64,000 bases of DNA from Rudanella lutea DSM 19387 (lineage in GTDB: Bacteria; Bacteroidota; Bacteroidia; Cytophagales; Spirosomataceae), in assembly GCF_000383955.1 (NCBI RefSeq), contig NZ_KB913013.1, positions 4,483,694 to 4,547,693 on the forward strand, read 5' to 3'. A model generated the notes under the pieces. The model was given only the letters and a program-made list of their open reading frames with translations. It had not been told where the DNA came from and ran no database searches. Shown here piece after piece: positions 32,307-40,167 of the stretch. How positions within the stretch are numbered: position 1 is the stretch's first letter; each line of letters starts with the position of its first letter. Position numbers and translations under genes: made by a program.

Positions 32307-32314
32307 TAACTTTG
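32307..32314 (+). promoter_or_regulatory. -7 box (TAACTTTG) at the start of the type IIG-like gene
   Basis: Exact TAnnTTTG match, ending only 4 bp before the ATG at 32319. With transcription starting about 5-7 bp after the box, the mRNA would be leaderless or nearly so. If the true start codon is further in, the first annotated residues (before ITHQHIDRF) would be lost without harm to the domain. Confidence 0.55.
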
Positions 32315-32318
32315 TTCC

Positions 32319-35300
32319 ATGAGGCTCCAACCCCGTAAGCCGGCTCAGGCACTGGATAAAGCGTACGCCAAACAAACCATCACCCACCAACACATCGACC
32401 GGTTCCGACAGGCCCTGTTGCGGCTGTTGACGCGGCTCGACGAGGGAGAGTCGGAGGTGTACCAGCGGAAAATAATCACCGAGTTTCTGAACGATACGTT
32501 TTACAACGCCCACTCAGGGCTGGCTGTGGCTACCCGCGACCAGAACGATCTGGTGATTTATACTGGCCCGACGGCCGAAGCCGCGCCCGGTGTGCTTATG
32601 GCGGCCAAGAAAGTGTTTGCCGGAGAGATGATGACTATGTTGAAAAACAATGTCAAGTCGCTCCATGAGCTTATTTTGTACTACTTCGAGGAAGCGGAGC
32701 GTCGGCCCGAACGCCCGTTTACGCGGCTGGTCATCACCGACGTGTACAACTGGTTTTTCTTTGCCGAAGCCGATTTTCGGCGGTTTTTCTACCAGAATCC
32801 CCGCCTGCGGAAACTCTACCAGATTAAGGGGCAACAGAAAAAAGACAACGCATTTTTCTTCAGTGAGACGGCCCGGATTCTGCGCGAGATGGACGACGAG
32901 GTGCCCGTAACCTGGCTCAACCTGCGCGAGCTCGAAAACGCGGCCCGTGCCGATAACCCCGCCGACTGGCTTCCGCTTATTCCAGTCTACAAGCTGTTTT
33001 CGCCCGAACACCTGCTCCAGATTCCGCTTACCGACAATGGCGATCTCATCAACGGCCCGTTTGTCGATGAGCTGCTGCATGTGCTGGGCCTCCATCGAAC
33101 CCTATCGGGTGGAGTCCCCCGGCTCGACCGGCTACCCGAACCCGACCGGCAACCGGGCTCCTGGCTCGAAAACACGATTGGATGCCTGCGCGCTACCGGG
33201 GCCCTGACCCACCTGCCCGACCCTAACACCTACGGCCCCGATCCCGAAGGGCAGGAAACCCGCGTTGCTCTCGAACTGCTGTTGACCTGGCTCGGCCGGG
33301 TCTTGTTTCTGAAACGGCTCGAAGGGCAGTTGCAAACCTACCACGGCTACAGCCGCGAGGGTCAGTTCCTGACGGCCCGTCAGCTACGCACTTTTGCCGA
33401 GTTAGGCGAGCTGTTTTTTGAGGTAATCGCCGTGCCGGTCTCGGAGCGGTCGGCTGGGGTGGTGAGCCGATACGGCCCGGCGGAGGCTATTCCGTACCTG
33501 AACAGTGCGCTGTTTGCCCCAACACAGCTCGAACAGGTACTCCCTCTGAGCGCGCTGAACGACCGGCTTACCCTGCCGCTATTTGCCCAAACAAGCCTGA
33601 AAACCCCATCGGGCGACCGGCAAACGGGCGAATTGCCCACGCTGACGTATTTGCTGGCTTTTCTGGATAGCTATGACTTTGCAACCGAAGGCGCGGCCAC
33701 TATTCAGCCCGACAATAAGCCCGCTCTGAACCACACGGCCCTCGGCCTGGTGATCGACCTGTTGAGTAACTCCCGCACCGGAGCCGCGTACACGCCCGGT
33801 TGGGTGGCCGAACATACCGTGCGTGAGCCCATTCGGCGGTTGGTGTTGCAGCGGTTCAACGAGCGGTTTGGTCTGCATTGCGCCGACCTGACCGACTTAC
33901 GGGCTCAGCTTCAGAATATAGAACCGGGCGAAGCCAACGCCCTCATCAATGGTCTGCGCGTGGTAGACCCGGCCGTGGGCGGTGGGCATCTGCTGGTATC
34001 GGCTCTGCACGAGCTGATCGCGATCAAAGCCGAGTTGGGTATTCTGACCGACCCGGCCGGGCGGCTGCTGAGCGGCTACGAGGTGGCGGTTGAAGGGGAC
34101 GATCTGGTGGTCTGGAATACCGACGGTGAGGTGTTTGCGTACCAACCGACAACCGCCCAGAGTCGGCTGCGTACGGGGCAACCCGTAGAGCGTCCGTCGA
34201 CAAGTCGCCGACGGGCACCGGGAGCCTCCGAAAAGCAACGGGTGCAGGAAACCCTTTTTCACGAAAAGCGGATTTTAATCCAGCACTGCCTGTTTGGGGT
34301 CGATGCGGACCCGGTTGCGGTTGAGTTGGCCCGGTTGCGGTTAGCACTCGAATTACTCAAAAGTACCTATTACGTAACCGACGGTAAGGCGGGCTGGTCG
34401 CTACCGAACATCCCTAATCTGGATGCAAATCTGAAGGTTGGTAATGCCCTTATCAGCCGATTTGGGCTTGGGTTTCGGGCGGATACGGTGCGTAACGTAA
34501 GCCTGCGCGAGAAGTTTACGGGTGCGTTTCGGCAGTACCGGACCGACCGGATGGCTTACCCGACTTGTTGGGAGGAAGCTGAAAAAGCCCAAATAGAAGC
34601 CCGAATGGCCGATTTCGAGGCTCTCCTCCCGCAGTTAGCCTTAATCGACGGGAAAGACTATGCCGAGATTCGCGAGCTCGAAACCCGGCGGGCGCAACTC
34701 GCTCTCACCTTCGATTTTGTCGAACACGATAACCGGCTGCAAACGCTGGACGCTCAGGTGGCTGCCCGAAAAAAAGCGTTGGCCGATAAACAACGCCCGT
34801 ACGCACAGGCGGTCGAATGGCGGTTTATGTTTCCCGAAGTGCTCGATGAGGCTGGGGCGTTTGTTGGATTCGATGCGGTGCTGAGCTACCTGCCAATCAC
34901 CGATCCCGATGAGCCGGCTGGCCGCCGGGCCTTGCTGAGTAAATCGTTTCCGAACACCTACGCGCCGGGTATCGGTGCGTATGCCTTATTTGTGGAACAG
35001 AGCCTGAACCTGCTGCGGTCGGGCGGGCAGTTGGCCTGTGTGCTGCCCACCGATTGGATGCGCAGCCCGCACGGTGCTAACCTGCGGCAGTGGCTCAAAA
35101 CAGGCGTGGCCATCGAACAGGTGACCGACTTGGGCGACGACCCGACCGGGGGCGAACCGGTTTGTGTGCTGAACCTGCGCAAGGCCCCGGCCCACGATAA
35201 CTTCCGGGTAACTCAACGAAGGGGGGCGCAACGCCAGGCGACCGAAACGCACAGCCGCTCGTTTGTGATTGCGACCCATTCGTTGCCCGACGACGGGTGG

Positions 35301-36152
35301 CTCCTGTCGGACCCGGCCGGGCAAAACCTGCTCACGCGCATTCGGGAGGCTGGGCAACCGCTCACCGACTATGTGGCCGGTCGGCTGTGGAGCGGTATCA
35401 AAACCGGGCTGGACGAAGCCTTTGTGATTGATACCAAGACCCGAAACCGGCTACTGGCCGACGATCCCCGCTCGGCTGAGGTACTGAAACCCGTTGTGTT
35501 GCCGCGTAACATCGGGCGGTACATGGTTGACCCACCCGCTCGGTTTCTGATCGCTCTCGAACGGGGGATGACGACGCAGCTACGGGGCGAAAGTGACCCA
35601 GAAAGCTGGCTGGCCGAGACCTACCCGGCTGTGCACAACTGGTTAAAACCGTTTGAGGCTAAAGCGCAGGCGCGGGCCAATCAGGGCGTGTTTTGGTGGG
35701 AACTCCAGACAGATGCCACCGTCGTGCAGTTTCGGCAACCGTATATTGTGTTCAATCCGGCTCGGTCGGTACCCGCCTTTGCGCTGGCCGATGGCGACGC
35801 GTACCCACTCGGCAAAACATTCGTGATCGGGTCGGGCGACCGCTACCTGCTGGCCGTGTTGAACAGCGCAGTAGTGGAGTATTTTCTGCGTATAACGACC
35901 CCGGTAACCCATAAAGGCGCCACCCGGCTCCGGCCCGAGCGTTGGGCGCAGATTCCGGTGCCGCCCGCTACGCCCGAACAGCAAGCGCCCATTGTAGCCC
36001 TGGTCGATCAGATTCTGTCCTTGCGGGCGGCAGGGAGCAGTACCGAGGGGCTCGAGGCCGACGTATCAATGTTGGTAGGTGCCCTCTACGGCCTGAATTC
36101 CGATGAAATGGCCGCTATTCGACCGGCTGATGGGGGAGAAACTATTGGCTAA
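32319..36152 (+). CDS. Type IIG restriction-modification homologue with altered nuclease and methyltransferase motifs
   Basis: 1277 residues. Type IIG enzymes (Eco57I-like) join a PD-(D/E)XK nuclease, an N6-adenine methyltransferase and a target-recognition domain in one chain. The order here is the same. The nuclease-like part is at 20-220: NDLVIYTG with Asp77, then VLMAAKKVF. The helical region LHELILYYFEEAERR and VITDVYNWFFF fits the family. SAM-binding motif I is VDPAVGGGHLLVSAL (Asp550). The TaqI-type recognition part near 1020-1240 has LWSGIKTGLDEAFVID and SAEVLKPVVLPRNIGRY. Oddities: the nuclease E-x-K reads A95-A-K97, and the methylase N-P-P-Y reads S856-Y-L-P in FDAVLSYLPITDP. Both active sites therefore look dead, while the frame is intact. 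The best guess is a repurposed DNA-binding protein. It is followed by a WYL regulator. Confidence 0.85.
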   Translation: MRLQPRKPAQALDKAYAKQTITHQHIDRFRQALLRLLTRLDEGESEVYQRKIITEFLNDTFYNAHSGLAVATRDQNDLVIYTGPTAEAAPGVLMAAKKVFAGEMMTMLKNNVKSLHELILYYFEEAERRPERPFTRLVITDVYNWFFFAEADFRRFFYQNPRLRKLYQIKGQQKKDNAFFFSETARILREMDDEVPVTWLNLRELENAARADNPADWLPLIPVYKLFSPEHLLQIPLTDNGDLINGPFVDELLHVLGLHRTLSGGVPRLDRLPEPDRQPGSWLENTIGCLRATGALTHLPDPNTYGPDPEGQETRVALELLLTWLGRVLFLKRLEGQLQTYHGYSREGQFLTARQLRTFAELGELFFEVIAVPVSERSAGVVSRYGPAEAIPYLNSALFAPTQLEQVLPLSALNDRLTLPLFAQTSLKTPSGDRQTGELPTLTYLLAFLDSYDFATEGAATIQPDNKPALNHTALGLVIDLLSNSRTGAAYTPGWVAEHTVREPIRRLVLQRFNERFGLHCADLTDLRAQLQNIEPGEANALINGLRVVDPAVGGGHLLVSALHELIAIKAELGILTDPAGRLLSGYEVAVEGDDLVVWNTDGEVFAYQPTTAQSRLRTGQPVERPSTSRRRAPGASEKQRVQETLFHEKRILIQHCLFGVDADPVAVELARLRLALELLKSTYYVTDGKAGWSLPNIPNLDANLKVGNALISRFGLGFRADTVRNVSLREKFTGAFRQYRTDRMAYPTCWEEAEKAQIEARMADFEALLPQLALIDGKDYAEIRELETRRAQLALTFDFVEHDNRLQTLDAQVAARKKALADKQRPYAQAVEWRFMFPEVLDEAGAFVGFDAVLSYLPITDPDEPAGRRALLSKSFPNTYAPGIGAYALFVEQSLNLLRSGGQLACVLPTDWMRSPHGANLRQWLKTGVAIEQVTDLGDDPTGGEPVCVLNLRKAPAHDNFRVTQRRGAQRQATETHSRSFVIATHSLPDDGWLLSDPAGQNLLTRIREAGQPLTDYVAGRLWSGIKTGLDEAFVIDTKTRNRLLADDPRSAEVLKPVVLPRNIGRYMVDPPARFLIALERGMTTQLRGESDPESWLAETYPAVHNWLKPFEAKAQARANQGVFWWELQTDATVVQFRQPYIVFNPARSVPAFALADGDAYPLGKTFVIGSGDRYLLAVLNSAVVEYFLRITTPVTHKGATRLRPERWAQIPVPPATPEQQAPIVALVDQILSLRAAGSSTEGLEADVSMLVGALYGLNSDEMAAIRPADGGETIG

Positions 36153-36235: not shown

Positions 36236-36288
36236 GAACGCGGCCCCGTTGTACCCGACCGCCGGGACGGGGCCGCGTTCGCCTTTTT
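36236..36288 (+). terminator. Strong terminator-like hairpin directly before the WYL start codon
   Basis: GAACGCGGCCCCGT (36236-36249) pairs perfectly with ACGGGGCCGCGTTC (36267-36280), 14 bp with a 17 nt loop, followed by GCCTTTTT. It ends the type IIG-like transcript. Its T tract ends about 2 bp before the WYL ATG at 36291, so the WYL gene cannot be read through efficiently. It needs its own signal or an attenuation control. Confidence 0.85.
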
Positions 36289-36290
36289 CT

Positions 36291-37247
36291 ATGAACCGTC
36301 TCCATCGCCTGACTGCCATCCTGATTCACCTGCAAACTAAGCGGGTGGTGCGGGCGCAGGAACTGGCCGACCGTTTCGGCATCAGCCTCCGCACTGTGTA
36401 CCGCGATGTTCGCTCGCTCGAAGAGGCCGGTGTGCCTATCGGGGCCGAGGCCGGGGTGGGCTATTTCCTGACCGATTATCATTTGCCCCCGGTCATGTTT
36501 ACCAATGCTGAAGCGGGGGCCCTGGTGTTTGCTGCCAAACTGATTGAAAACTGGGCCGACGAATCGGTACAAACGGCCTTTGACTCGGCCCTGTACAAGA
36601 TCAAATCGGTGCTCAAACAAACGGATCAGGAGCACCTCGACGAACTGGCTCCGCAGGTGGCCATTCAGAAACCAGTTACGGGCAAGTACCGGGCGGGTGG
36701 CTTGCTCAACACCATTCAGCAGGCTATCGGTCGGCAGCACGTGCTCCGAATGCACTATCAGGCGGGTTATACCGATGCCGAAAGCTGGCGCGAAGTGGAG
36801 CCCGTGGGCCTGTACCATTACAGCATGGCGTGGCACCTGATTGCCTTTTGCCGACACCGGCAGGATTACCGCGACTTTCGGGTGGATCGGATTCATGAGC
36901 TGACCGATACAGGCCAACGGTTTGCCCGTCATGCCCGAATGACCTTACGCCAATACCTCGATCAGATGCATTCTGATATGCCCCTCACCAACGTGACGGT
37001 GGTGTTCGACAAGTCGGTGGTACGGTTCCTGAACGACCAACGGCACAGCTGGGGTTTTTCGGAAGAGGAAGACCTCGGCGACCGGGTTCGGATGCACCTC
37101 TGTACGCCTTATCTGTGGGGGCTGGCGCGTTGGCTGCTGGCGTTCGGTTCGTCCGTGACGGTAGAGTCGCCCGACGAGCTTCAGGGCATTTTACAACGAC
37201 TCGCCCGCGATATTCAGGCGCATTACCTTGTAGAGGCCGAGGTGTAG
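36291..37247 (+). CDS. HTH/WYL-domain transcriptional regulator (YafY type)
   Basis: 318 residues from MNRLHRLTAILIHLQ; an ATG at 36249 lies inside the terminator stem and is unlikely. The N-terminal winged helix is VVRAQELADRFGISLRTVYRDVRSLEEAGVP with the usual GVGYFL wing. The WYL domain (about 135-230) contains HVLRMHYQAGYTD, VEPVGLYHYSMAWHLIAFCR (WYL-type core) and DYRDFRVDRI. A C-terminal WCX extension follows. Proteins of this type bind nucleotides or nucleic acids and often control restriction or other defence genes. It lies right behind the odd type IIG-like protein, which supports a role in controlling it. Confidence 0.92.
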   Translation: MNRLHRLTAILIHLQTKRVVRAQELADRFGISLRTVYRDVRSLEEAGVPIGAEAGVGYFLTDYHLPPVMFTNAEAGALVFAAKLIENWADESVQTAFDSALYKIKSVLKQTDQEHLDELAPQVAIQKPVTGKYRAGGLLNTIQQAIGRQHVLRMHYQAGYTDAESWREVEPVGLYHYSMAWHLIAFCRHRQDYRDFRVDRIHELTDTGQRFARHARMTLRQYLDQMHSDMPLTNVTVVFDKSVVRFLNDQRHSWGFSEEEDLGDRVRMHLCTPYLWGLARWLLAFGSSVTVESPDELQGILQRLARDIQAHYLVEAEV

Positions 37248-38541: not shown

Positions 38542-39297
38542 ATGAAAAACAACGATCAACTACCGCGCCCGGAAGTCGGGCCGAGTGTACCGGCCATTCC
38601 CTCGGTCGAACGGCGGCTTTTTATGCGTCAGCTTGGGCTGGTATCGGCCTCTACGGCGGCTTTTCTGGCCTCCTGCACCCGCGAACCGCTCGTTGACCCA
38701 CAAACGGGTAAGCGGCAGGCCCGGCTGGGGGCTGAGGTTCTCCCCGACGGAACCGTTGACCTGGGGTCGGGCGATATTGGTATCTCCAATCTGGCGTACA
38801 CACTCGATCAACTCGAAACGGCCTTTTATGCCACGGCCTTGCAGCGAGCCATGAACGTGACGCCCGAAGACCGCAGAGTACTGGCCGAACTGCACGATCA
38901 TGAAGTGGCCCACCGCGAATTTTTCAAGACATTTCTGGGCGGTATGGCTATCCCGATGCTCGACTTCGATTTCAGCACGGTCGACTTCAGTAACCGAAAT
39001 AGTGTATTCGATGCGGCTCAGCAGTTTGAGAATGTGGGAGTGGCCGCTTTCAATGGTACGGGGCCGCTTATTCACGATGTCGAAGTGCTCAAGATTGCCG
39101 GCAAAATGGTGTCTATTGAGGCCCGGCACGCAACCCTGGCCCGGCACATGATTGCGCCCAAAACGCCGTTTGCTCTCAGTCATGAGCTGATCGATGCGCA
39201 GGGCCGCGATTGGCACCTGACCCCCGGCGAAGTGGTAGCCCGCGCGCAGAAGTACATCAAACAGAAAATCAGCATTGCCAACCTGCCGACGTACTAA
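38542..39297 (+). CDS. Ferritin-like (desiccation-related type) protein with lipoprotein-like signal
   Basis: 251 residues. The N-terminus has VERRLFMRQLGLVSASTAAFLASCT, a twin-Arg-like signal with a possible lipobox (FLASC), so it is exported. A four-helix ferritin-like domain (about 85-235) keeps a complete-looking di-iron set: LDQLETAFYA (Glu), HDHEVAHREFF (E-x-x-H), QFENVGVAAF (Glu) and SIEARHATL (E-x-x-H). Such Ferritin_2 proteins are linked to stress or desiccation in bacteria. It is followed by a paralogue after 66 bp, so the two are cotranscribed. Confidence 0.88.
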   Translation: MKNNDQLPRPEVGPSVPAIPSVERRLFMRQLGLVSASTAAFLASCTREPLVDPQTGKRQARLGAEVLPDGTVDLGSGDIGISNLAYTLDQLETAFYATALQRAMNVTPEDRRVLAELHDHEVAHREFFKTFLGGMAIPMLDFDFSTVDFSNRNSVFDAAQQFENVGVAAFNGTGPLIHDVEVLKIAGKMVSIEARHATLARHMIAPKTPFALSHELIDAQGRDWHLTPGEVVARAQKYIKQKISIANLPTY

Positions 39298-39363
39298 GTG
39301 AATGCGTGCGGCCCATGGCTGTGAATTGAATTCTGCTGTCAACTTCCTAACAACAAGACATTT

Positions 39364-40167
39364 ATGAATTTATTCAACATACTTTCGGAAATAGAACAAC
39401 GCGACGCCGAGGCTTACGACAAGTTTATGGTATCGCGCCGTAAATTGTTCAAAACTACAGCCGTAGCCGCTGCCGGGTCGACAGGCCTGCTGGCGGCTAC
39501 GCTCAACAAGGCCTTTGCCGCCGATGGCGATGTGGCCGATGTGCTCAACTTTGCCCTGCTGCTCGAATACCTCGAAGCGGAGTTTTACGCCATTGGCCTC
39601 AACACGCCGGGGCTGATTCCGGCCAATGACCGGAATGTGTTTGCCAGGATTGGTGAGCACGAGCGGCAGCACGTCGATTTTCTGCGGTCGGCACTGGGCA
39701 GCAGCGCTATTTCGAAGCCCACGTTTGATTTTACGGCGGGTGGCCAATTCCCGACGGTCTTTAGTAATTACCCGACGTTTCTGGTGCTCTCGCAGGCGTT
39801 TGAAGATTTGGGTGTGCGAGCCTACAAAGGGCAGGCGCCCCGGCTCAAAGGAAACCGGGATGTGTTGCTGGCTGCGCTCAAAATTCACTCGGTAGAGGCC
39901 CGGCACGCGGGTGAGGTGCGCCTGATTCGGGGGTTACGGGTCTGGACCTCGGAAGGGGAAACCGGGGGGGCTCCCGCAGCCGTGTATATGGGCGAAAGCC
40001 CAACCATGCAATGGACGGTCGACCTGCCCCCGGTGGTAGGCCCCCGTTTGATTCAGCGCGAGGGCAACGTGGGGCAAACTGTGGAGCGTGTTGTGCGCGA
40101 AGCCTACGACGAGCCACTAACCAAGGAGCAGGTTCTGGCGATTGCCGGGCCGTTTGTGCGCGGGTAG
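39364..40167 (+). CDS. Ferritin-like protein, second tandem copy
   Basis: 267 residues. VSRRKLFKTTAVAAAGSTGLLAAT near residue 20 is a twin-Arg-type signal set behind a 20-residue leader; the N-terminus before it (MNLFNILSEIEQRDAEAYDK) is shared with other family members. The helix bundle has LLLEYLEAEFYA, IGEHERQHVDFL (E-x-x-H), FEDLGVRAYKG and SVEARHAGEVRL (E-x-x-H), so the di-iron site is complete. It is a paralogue of the previous gene. A repeat element begins 5 bp after the stop. Confidence 0.88.
   Translation: MNLFNILSEIEQRDAEAYDKFMVSRRKLFKTTAVAAAGSTGLLAATLNKAFAADGDVADVLNFALLLEYLEAEFYAIGLNTPGLIPANDRNVFARIGEHERQHVDFLRSALGSSAISKPTFDFTAGGQFPTVFSNYPTFLVLSQAFEDLGVRAYKGQAPRLKGNRDVLLAALKIHSVEARHAGEVRLIRGLRVWTSEGETGGAPAAVYMGESPTMQWTVDLPPVVGPRLIQREGNVGQTVERVVREAYDEPLTKEQVLAIAGPFVRG

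Follow-up and report, generated by a model that had tools for sequence, protein, structure and literature searches.

We analysed a window of 64,000 nucleotides from Rudanella lutea DSM 19387 (contig NZ_KB913013.1); all coordinates below are positions in that whole stretch unless another locus is named. The subject is a gene at 32319-36152 on the + strand, which encodes a homologue of the type IIG restriction enzymes in which residues of both the nuclease and the methyltransferase site are replaced. Homologues with both sites replaced are called dead, or double-dead, in what follows, and those keeping both are called intact. The frame starts with ATG and is uninterrupted for 1277 codons, as a first-pass annotation of this DNA had reported, and the type IIG domain order described there was recovered by Pfam (DUF7149, DUF7814, Eco57I) and by the PADLOC type IIG model PDLC03612, which spans residues 14-1267 (E 6.8e-160). 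The features of the gene are:

32319..36152, + strand: double-dead type IIG homologue, 1277 codons, open from ATG; Pfam and PADLOC matches
32337..33032, + strand: DUF7149, nuclease-like domain, residues 7-238; Pfam E 4.5e-69
32547..32549, + strand: Asp77, kept; alignment with relatives
32601..32609, + strand: A95-A96-K97 in the E-x-K slot (E to A); alignment with relatives
33048..33719, + strand: DUF7814, residues 244-467; Pfam E 1e-57
33966..33986, + strand: methyltransferase motif I, D550-P-A-V-G-G-G, kept; alignment
34284..35138, + strand: Eco57I-type methylase domain, residues 656-940; Pfam E 9e-17
34887..34898, + strand: Y857-L858-P859-I860 in the NPPY slot (N and Y lost); alignment and chain scan
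35733..35960, + strand: degraded TaqI-like specificity domain, residues 1139-1214; Pfam match under the cut-off

Alignment with relatives agreed with the earlier reading that A95-A-K97 stands in place of E-x-K: of the PD-(D/E)xK nuclease residues, E95 is replaced by alanine, and D77 and K97 are retained. Motif I, which serves S-adenosylmethionine (SAM), also remains with Asp550, as had been stated. The NPPY motif had been read as S856-Y-L-P. Its loss was upheld and its placement was not; S856 aligns with the G preceding NPPY, and the true slot, Y857-L-P-I, starts one residue later. The first-pass annotation had allowed for a true motif elsewhere in the chain. A motif scan gave zero matches to [NDS]PP[YFW] in the whole chain and zero to E-x-K within residues 1-240; the sole [NDS]PP string, D1071-P-P-A, lies inside the C-terminal recognition region. 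With these replacements the window protein is predicted to lack both chemistries, cleavage and methylation. A frame or assembly error, the other alternative raised earlier, is unlikely to have caused the lesions, because the orthologue L002 in Rudanella paleaurantiibacter, a species of the same genus, is 84% identical to the window protein, has the same E95A loss and is also without NPPY. The gene is single-copy in the R. lutea genome; a search of that genome returned the gene itself alone, which excluded a paralogue.

As to type IIG membership, the nuclease-like and methylase parts are present, and the recognition domain is matched under the Pfam cut-off (TaqI_C, PF12950, E 0.035, 14.8 bits vs a cut-off of 26.5). 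The same model matches the intact relatives L035 and L045 at E 1.5e-10 and 3.2e-17. The claim that a TaqI-type region remains thus holds for a trace of it and fails for a Pfam-level domain. In the window-L002 pair the ratio of nonsynonymous to synonymous substitution rates (dN/dS) of the recognition region is 0.194, so that this region is still under purifying selection.

AlphaFold gave confident models for window residues 1-985 (predicted local distance difference test score, pLDDT, 84.3) and for L042, a dead relative without the recognition domain (pLDDT 82.7), and on these models both proteins should still fold. A Foldseek search with the window model returned matches including BrxX, CamA, MmeI and BpuSI at E values from 1e-6 or better to 1e-13; the whole-chain template modelling scores (TM-scores) were low, 0.13-0.30 by query length, because the domain arrangements differ or the match spans part of the chain. 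Like the type IIG enzymes RM.BpuSI, MmeI and DrdV and the DUF7149-DUF7814 family, the window protein is a single chain with a nuclease-like domain, a helical part, an Eco57I-type core and, in its case, a C-terminal remnant, and the predicted fold of residues 1-985 matches MmeI, BpuSI, DrdV and BsaXI. It differs from them in replacements at the E of ExK and at both N and Y of NPPY, and in a recognition domain that is degraded here and absent in six relatives. PglX/BrxX of the bacteriophage exclusion (BREX) system is the best Foldseek match, over about 800 columns with a TM-score of about 0.3, and also gives a weak NCBIfam match. BrxX methylates, however, whereas the window protein has lost its methylase motif, and the NCBIfam PglX model is not reached (44.2 bits vs a cut-off of 500). 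The scan of direct neighbours covered two genes, which proved to be an Amidase_3 and a WYL gene.

Dead and intact homologues

Of 222 genomes of the family, 82 gave a match (E 0.001), and the intact member L035 was matched in 98 of 390 genomes drawn from the order, the family included (E 1e-80). These genome searches scored the best few candidates per genome, and only part of the located places was retrieved, so the sample is skewed to close relatives. The survey reduced 165 BLAST matches in the retrieved loci to 108 distinct frames, 12 of which, fragments and far relatives with a non-aligning first domain, were not scorable at both sites. D/E-E-K was accepted at the nuclease site and N/D/S-P-P-Y/F/W at the methylase site; because of the former, six proteins with K to R were scored as lost. 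Among the 96 scorable homologues, 84 were intact at both sites, 12 were dead at both, and none was dead at one. Double-dead homologues were thus found in 11 genomes besides that of the window and, judged by these motifs, the double-dead state is more general than the first-pass annotation stated.

A closer set, the clade referred to below, has 15 members: the window gene, three further genes from the genus Rudanella, two from genus g11 and nine from genus g33. Eleven are double-dead, and two, L035 and L039, retain both motifs. In L040 and L049 the nuclease motif is intact and the sequence runs into a contig end ahead of motif IV; L041, found on a different contig of the L040 genome (G116), is a C-terminal half with NPPY, and L040 and L041 may well be two halves of one gene, an intact sister apparently divided over two contig ends, likely by an assembly break and not as a pseudogene. 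The three dead Rudanella genes have lost the nuclease glutamate to A (the window gene and L002) or to N (L048, which also has D77 to E and motif I D to H). Among the eight dead g33 genes, L037 and L038 have D77 to G and E to G, and L042, L043, L044, L046, L047 and L050 have K to R and a chain that ends before the recognition domain (six of the 11 dead members in all). At the first NPPY position the 11 have Y, R, R, Q, E, V, V, C, C, Q and Y. Eight of the 11 no longer have the motif X Thr, and one no longer has the motif I Asp; in the alignment, motif I and the motif II Asp are largely kept. Dead members resemble the intact consensus most at motif I (identity 0.79) and in the nuclease-like domain (0.61-0.62), and least near motif X and in the recognition region (0.38 each).

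The twelfth double-dead homologue, L066 (7966-11427 of that locus; genome G220, genus g36), is a DUF7149 protein from another genus and subfamily, with R77, S-V-K and HPPF at the respective sites. Because L066 groups with another, intact subfamily, its loss looks independent.

Selection, promoter and chromosomal address

Three pairs of dead genes have shared lesions, so the common ancestor of each pair was already dead. Their dN/dS values were 0.170 (0.138-0.206) for window-L002, 0.215 (0.167-0.269) for L037-L038 and 0.228 (0.168-0.302) for L042-L043, where neutral decay would give about 1. Under neutrality about 64 stop codons were expected in window-L002, at a synonymous divergence (dS) of 0.503, and about 24 in each of the other pairs; none was present in any. 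A codon model gave 0.19 for the three Rudanella genes, 0.22 for six g33 genes and about 0.08 for four intact genes (0.077; N-terminal part), and the more distant intact pair L035-L039 gave 0.178, no lower than window-L002. By these measures of substitution, selection has continued to preserve the gene since both sites were lost. The first-pass annotation had proposed that a gene preserved after losing both chemistries has a new role; the preservation is borne out by the window-L002 ratio and by the 11 further double-dead genomes, and the particular roles it suggested fared less well, as described below.

A promoter element lies directly before the start codon:

32307..32314, + strand: TAACTTTG, Bacteroidota -7 promoter box (TAHHTTTG), 4 nt from box end to ATG; predicts a leaderless transcript

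All 15 clade members, dead and intact, and so 11 of 11 dead ones, have a TAHHTTTG whose first T lies 12-15 bases ahead of the start codon, against a background of 28 among 5862 ATGs in nine loci. The box is not at that place in four non-clade intact genes with an identified start, nor in L066; L068 has one at -39, and L036, not trimmed to its start, was left out of the comparison. In Flavobacterium johnsoniae, TAHHTTTG is the -7 element, its T stands at -12 relative to the transcript start, and leaders >10 nt are found in 87% of the predicted transcripts (PMC6847099). With the box T at -12 to -15 from the ATG in the clade, that spacing predicts a leader of 0 to 3 nt. We infer that the transcript is leaderless and that the promoter has outlived the enzyme.

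The best tree grouped the 11 dead genes together, nested within intact ones, with a bootstrap of 56, a Shimodaira-Hasegawa-like approximate likelihood ratio (SH-aLRT) of 99 and long branches present; FastTree on 98 rows gave the same group of 11 with support 1.0. An alternative tree, in which the three dead Rudanella genes group with their genus-mate L049, fits equally well and was not rejected (approximately unbiased, AU, test, p 0.498). Eleven g33 and g11 genomes have a clade gene, whether dead or intact, and in nine of them it lies downstream of a 217-amino-acid gene and a coiled-coil gene of ~166 amino acids, with about 0.7 kb in between in g11. As for the remaining two, L038 is preceded by the coiled-coil gene, and a GHMP kinase gene follows both L037 and L038; the same GHMP kinase gene lies downstream of the 217-amino-acid gene at 14 of 26 g33 loci without a clade gene. 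Because of these common neighbours, most g33 and g11 clade genes appear to be at, or derived from, one address. The 217-amino-acid gene is present in 35 of 36 g33 genomes; its protein (L042:6680-7330), at 83-100% identity in those 35, is matched by neither Pfam nor NCBIfam models at E 0.001. Rudanella has another address, where the gene follows an Amidase_3 gene in the window, L002 and L048:

31285..32241, + strand: upstream neighbour, Amidase_3; same neighbour in three Rudanella genomes, an address marker by neighbourhood alone

No remnant of the gene was found by tblastn (E 1e-3) at any of the 26 g33 loci that have the 217-amino-acid gene and lack a clade gene. The coiled-coil gene was found in 20 of these 26; two of the stretches, L130 and L131, are short. 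At 13 of the 26, the spacer between the coiled-coil and GHMP kinase genes likewise held no convincing remnant (best tblastn E 0.043; best blastn E 0.010, over 17-25 bases), and a search of five gene-free loci with Rfam gave 14 matches, all under gathering scores. The spacer itself is alike across g33 species, that of L112 being 83, 75, 70 and 66% identical to those of L126, L121, L135 and L127; in L126 (1781-2960) it contains a 26-bp inverted repeat with perfectly matching arms and three direct repeats of 63 nt, and by eye it seems to hold small, lipoprotein-like open reading frames. With regard to a mobile origin, matching plasmid records numbered 84, with <=32% identity among the 15 matches listed, and there was one matching phage record.

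A predicted pseudoenzyme and its possible role

A homologous fold with its catalytic residues lost is what motifs and models indicate here, and in that sense the protein is a predicted pseudoenzyme of type IIG. We think it probable that it descends from a resident restriction-modification protein and has been kept for a non-catalytic, binding role. METTL14, the degenerate partner of METTL3, offers a parallel: its methyltransferase fold, whose motif IV is ruined (EPPL for DPPW), has been kept for a non-catalytic role, so that such a fold can act as a partner or binding subunit (PMC5023411). METTL14 differs from the window protein in belonging to a eukaryotic RNA complex with a known active partner; of the 11 dead-bearing genomes, ten showed no other full-length intact DUF7149 enzyme in the searches, which scored the best few candidates.

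Several observations weigh against such a role. On the N-terminal part, the codon model gave 0.18-0.22 for the dead sets vs 0.077 for the intact one; an intact pair compared over 620 shared N-terminal codons gave dN/dS 0.075 (0.049-0.110), so that the dead pairs are less constrained; and nine genes neighbouring the window gene, at 0.013-0.098, are held more tightly. The dead copy occurs in eight of 36 g33 genomes, and this patchy presence suggests that its role is dispensable. With a bootstrap of 56 and the alternative tree, a single origin of the dead clade is not firm, and the differing nuclease lesions could mean separate losses. The neighbour comparison found no gene partner common to the dead copies. 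The Foldseek matches, being active enzymes, are uninformative on a new role.

A rival reading is a decaying restriction-modification gene, not yet broken, that drifts neutrally after loss of activity. In its favour are dN/dS above that of intact sisters, a recognition domain lost or degraded, patchy presence, and a motif IV residue still shifting between close relatives (Y/R in window-L002, Q/E in L037-L038). Decay is nevertheless unlikely, given the upper dN/dS limits of 0.206, 0.269 and 0.302 in the three dead pairs, the lack of the expected stop codons in each, the 26 gene-free loci without a half-broken copy, and a promoter box retained by every dead clade member. Since dN/dS of the dead pairs is above that of the intact pair and of the neighbours and far below 1, constraint on the dead genes is relaxed yet clearly present.

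Also weighed was a sequence-specific DNA-binding or SAM-responsive regulator working with the adjoining WYL regulator. The first-pass annotation had correctly placed a WYL gene beside the window gene:

36249..37247, + strand: downstream neighbour, WYL regulator; adjacent in two genomes only, outside the unit

The WYL gene adjoins the dead gene in the window and in L002, whose recognition region is still constrained. Across the 53 loci compared, some with flanks of only about 1.5 kb, a similar WYL gene was found in L002 alone, and none lies close to the copy in L048, the third Rudanella genome; on this comparison WYL as partner is not supported and was rejected. The homologue clade that the annotation had envisaged therefore exists as a group of double-dead relatives and not as one with a WYL partner. 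Its suggestion of sequence-specific DNA binding is weakened by the six dead relatives without a recognition domain and by the window's sub-threshold TaqI_C match, although the constraint on that region speaks for it. In RM.BpuSI, the N406A change in NPPY abolished SAM binding, methylation and, to the surprise of its authors, cleavage (PMC3817140). SAM sensing is weakened by that loss of binding, as it is by the missing motif X Thr and, in one member, motif I Asp. The regulator is, in sum, very unlikely.

Least probable of all is an active enzyme with an altered site, for example one methylating another substrate: motif I and the fold largely remain, as does the motif II Asp, and other methyltransferases have D or S at the motif IV N position, but the first NPPY position varies so widely among the dead members and L066 (H) that no new motif IV has been fixed, the motif X Thr is mostly gone, and RM.BpuSI N406A loses SAM binding.

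For the pseudoenzyme kept for binding, a route can be proposed. If only methylation were lost, a type IIG enzyme would be expected to cleave the DNA of its host. If the behaviour of RM.BpuSI N406A carries over to the DUF7149 family, as we assume, loss of the NPPY Asn would disable methylation and cleavage together, and because it removes both activities, chemistry could be lost in one harmless step. This one-step model fits, since the Asn is lost in 12 of 12 dead homologues, its replacements are many and the nuclease lesions are lineage-specific. The nuclease site would then have eroded lineage by lineage, E becoming A, N or G, or K becoming R. What is selected now may, with less assurance, be binding by the nuclease-like domain and methyltransferase scaffold, that is, occupancy and not chemistry. 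Our leading guess, a tentative one, is a role as competitor or decoy, in which the protein would interfere with related restriction enzymes or absorb the phage anti-restriction proteins directed against them. Co-occurrence shows no clear association that would bear on this guess: another intact DUF7149 enzyme accompanies the dead copy in one of eight g33 genomes vs eight of 27 without a clade gene (p 0.65). The full proposal, that a restriction-modification gene turned at least twice, by death through the NPPY Asn, into a leaderless-transcribed, non-catalytic occupancy protein that obstructs related restriction enzymes or captures anti-restriction proteins, is possible but doubtful as a whole.

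Restriction genes are usually viewed as working or broken; here a set of homologues is double-dead yet apparently selected, and none of the 96 scored homologues is half-dead. The intact sisters, some at the same chromosomal address, are built-in controls. Two questions are opened: how a restriction enzyme can give up its chemistry and leave the host alive, and which function a protein of this kind has once the chemistry is gone. A literature search found no title reporting this family, in coverage largely without subscription papers, so that absence in print is not established, and no paper joining Spirosoma, methylome and restriction-modification. For annotation there is a warning, in that PADLOC calls a type IIG enzyme with high significance where the motifs predict neither cutting nor methylation.

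Other adjoining genes

Directly after the dead gene in L042, L043, L046 and L047, and farther off in L044, lie a gene of 172 amino acids and then a resistance-nodulation-division (RND) efflux set. The 172-amino-acid gene was considered as a conserved partner; 23 of 36 g33 genomes have homologues of it, for the most part at other places and with lower identity, and the dead-bearing genome G182 yielded none. Farther along the window, at 38542-40167, two adjoining genes, 37-39% alike and ferritin-like by eye, stand side by side, as they do in L002.

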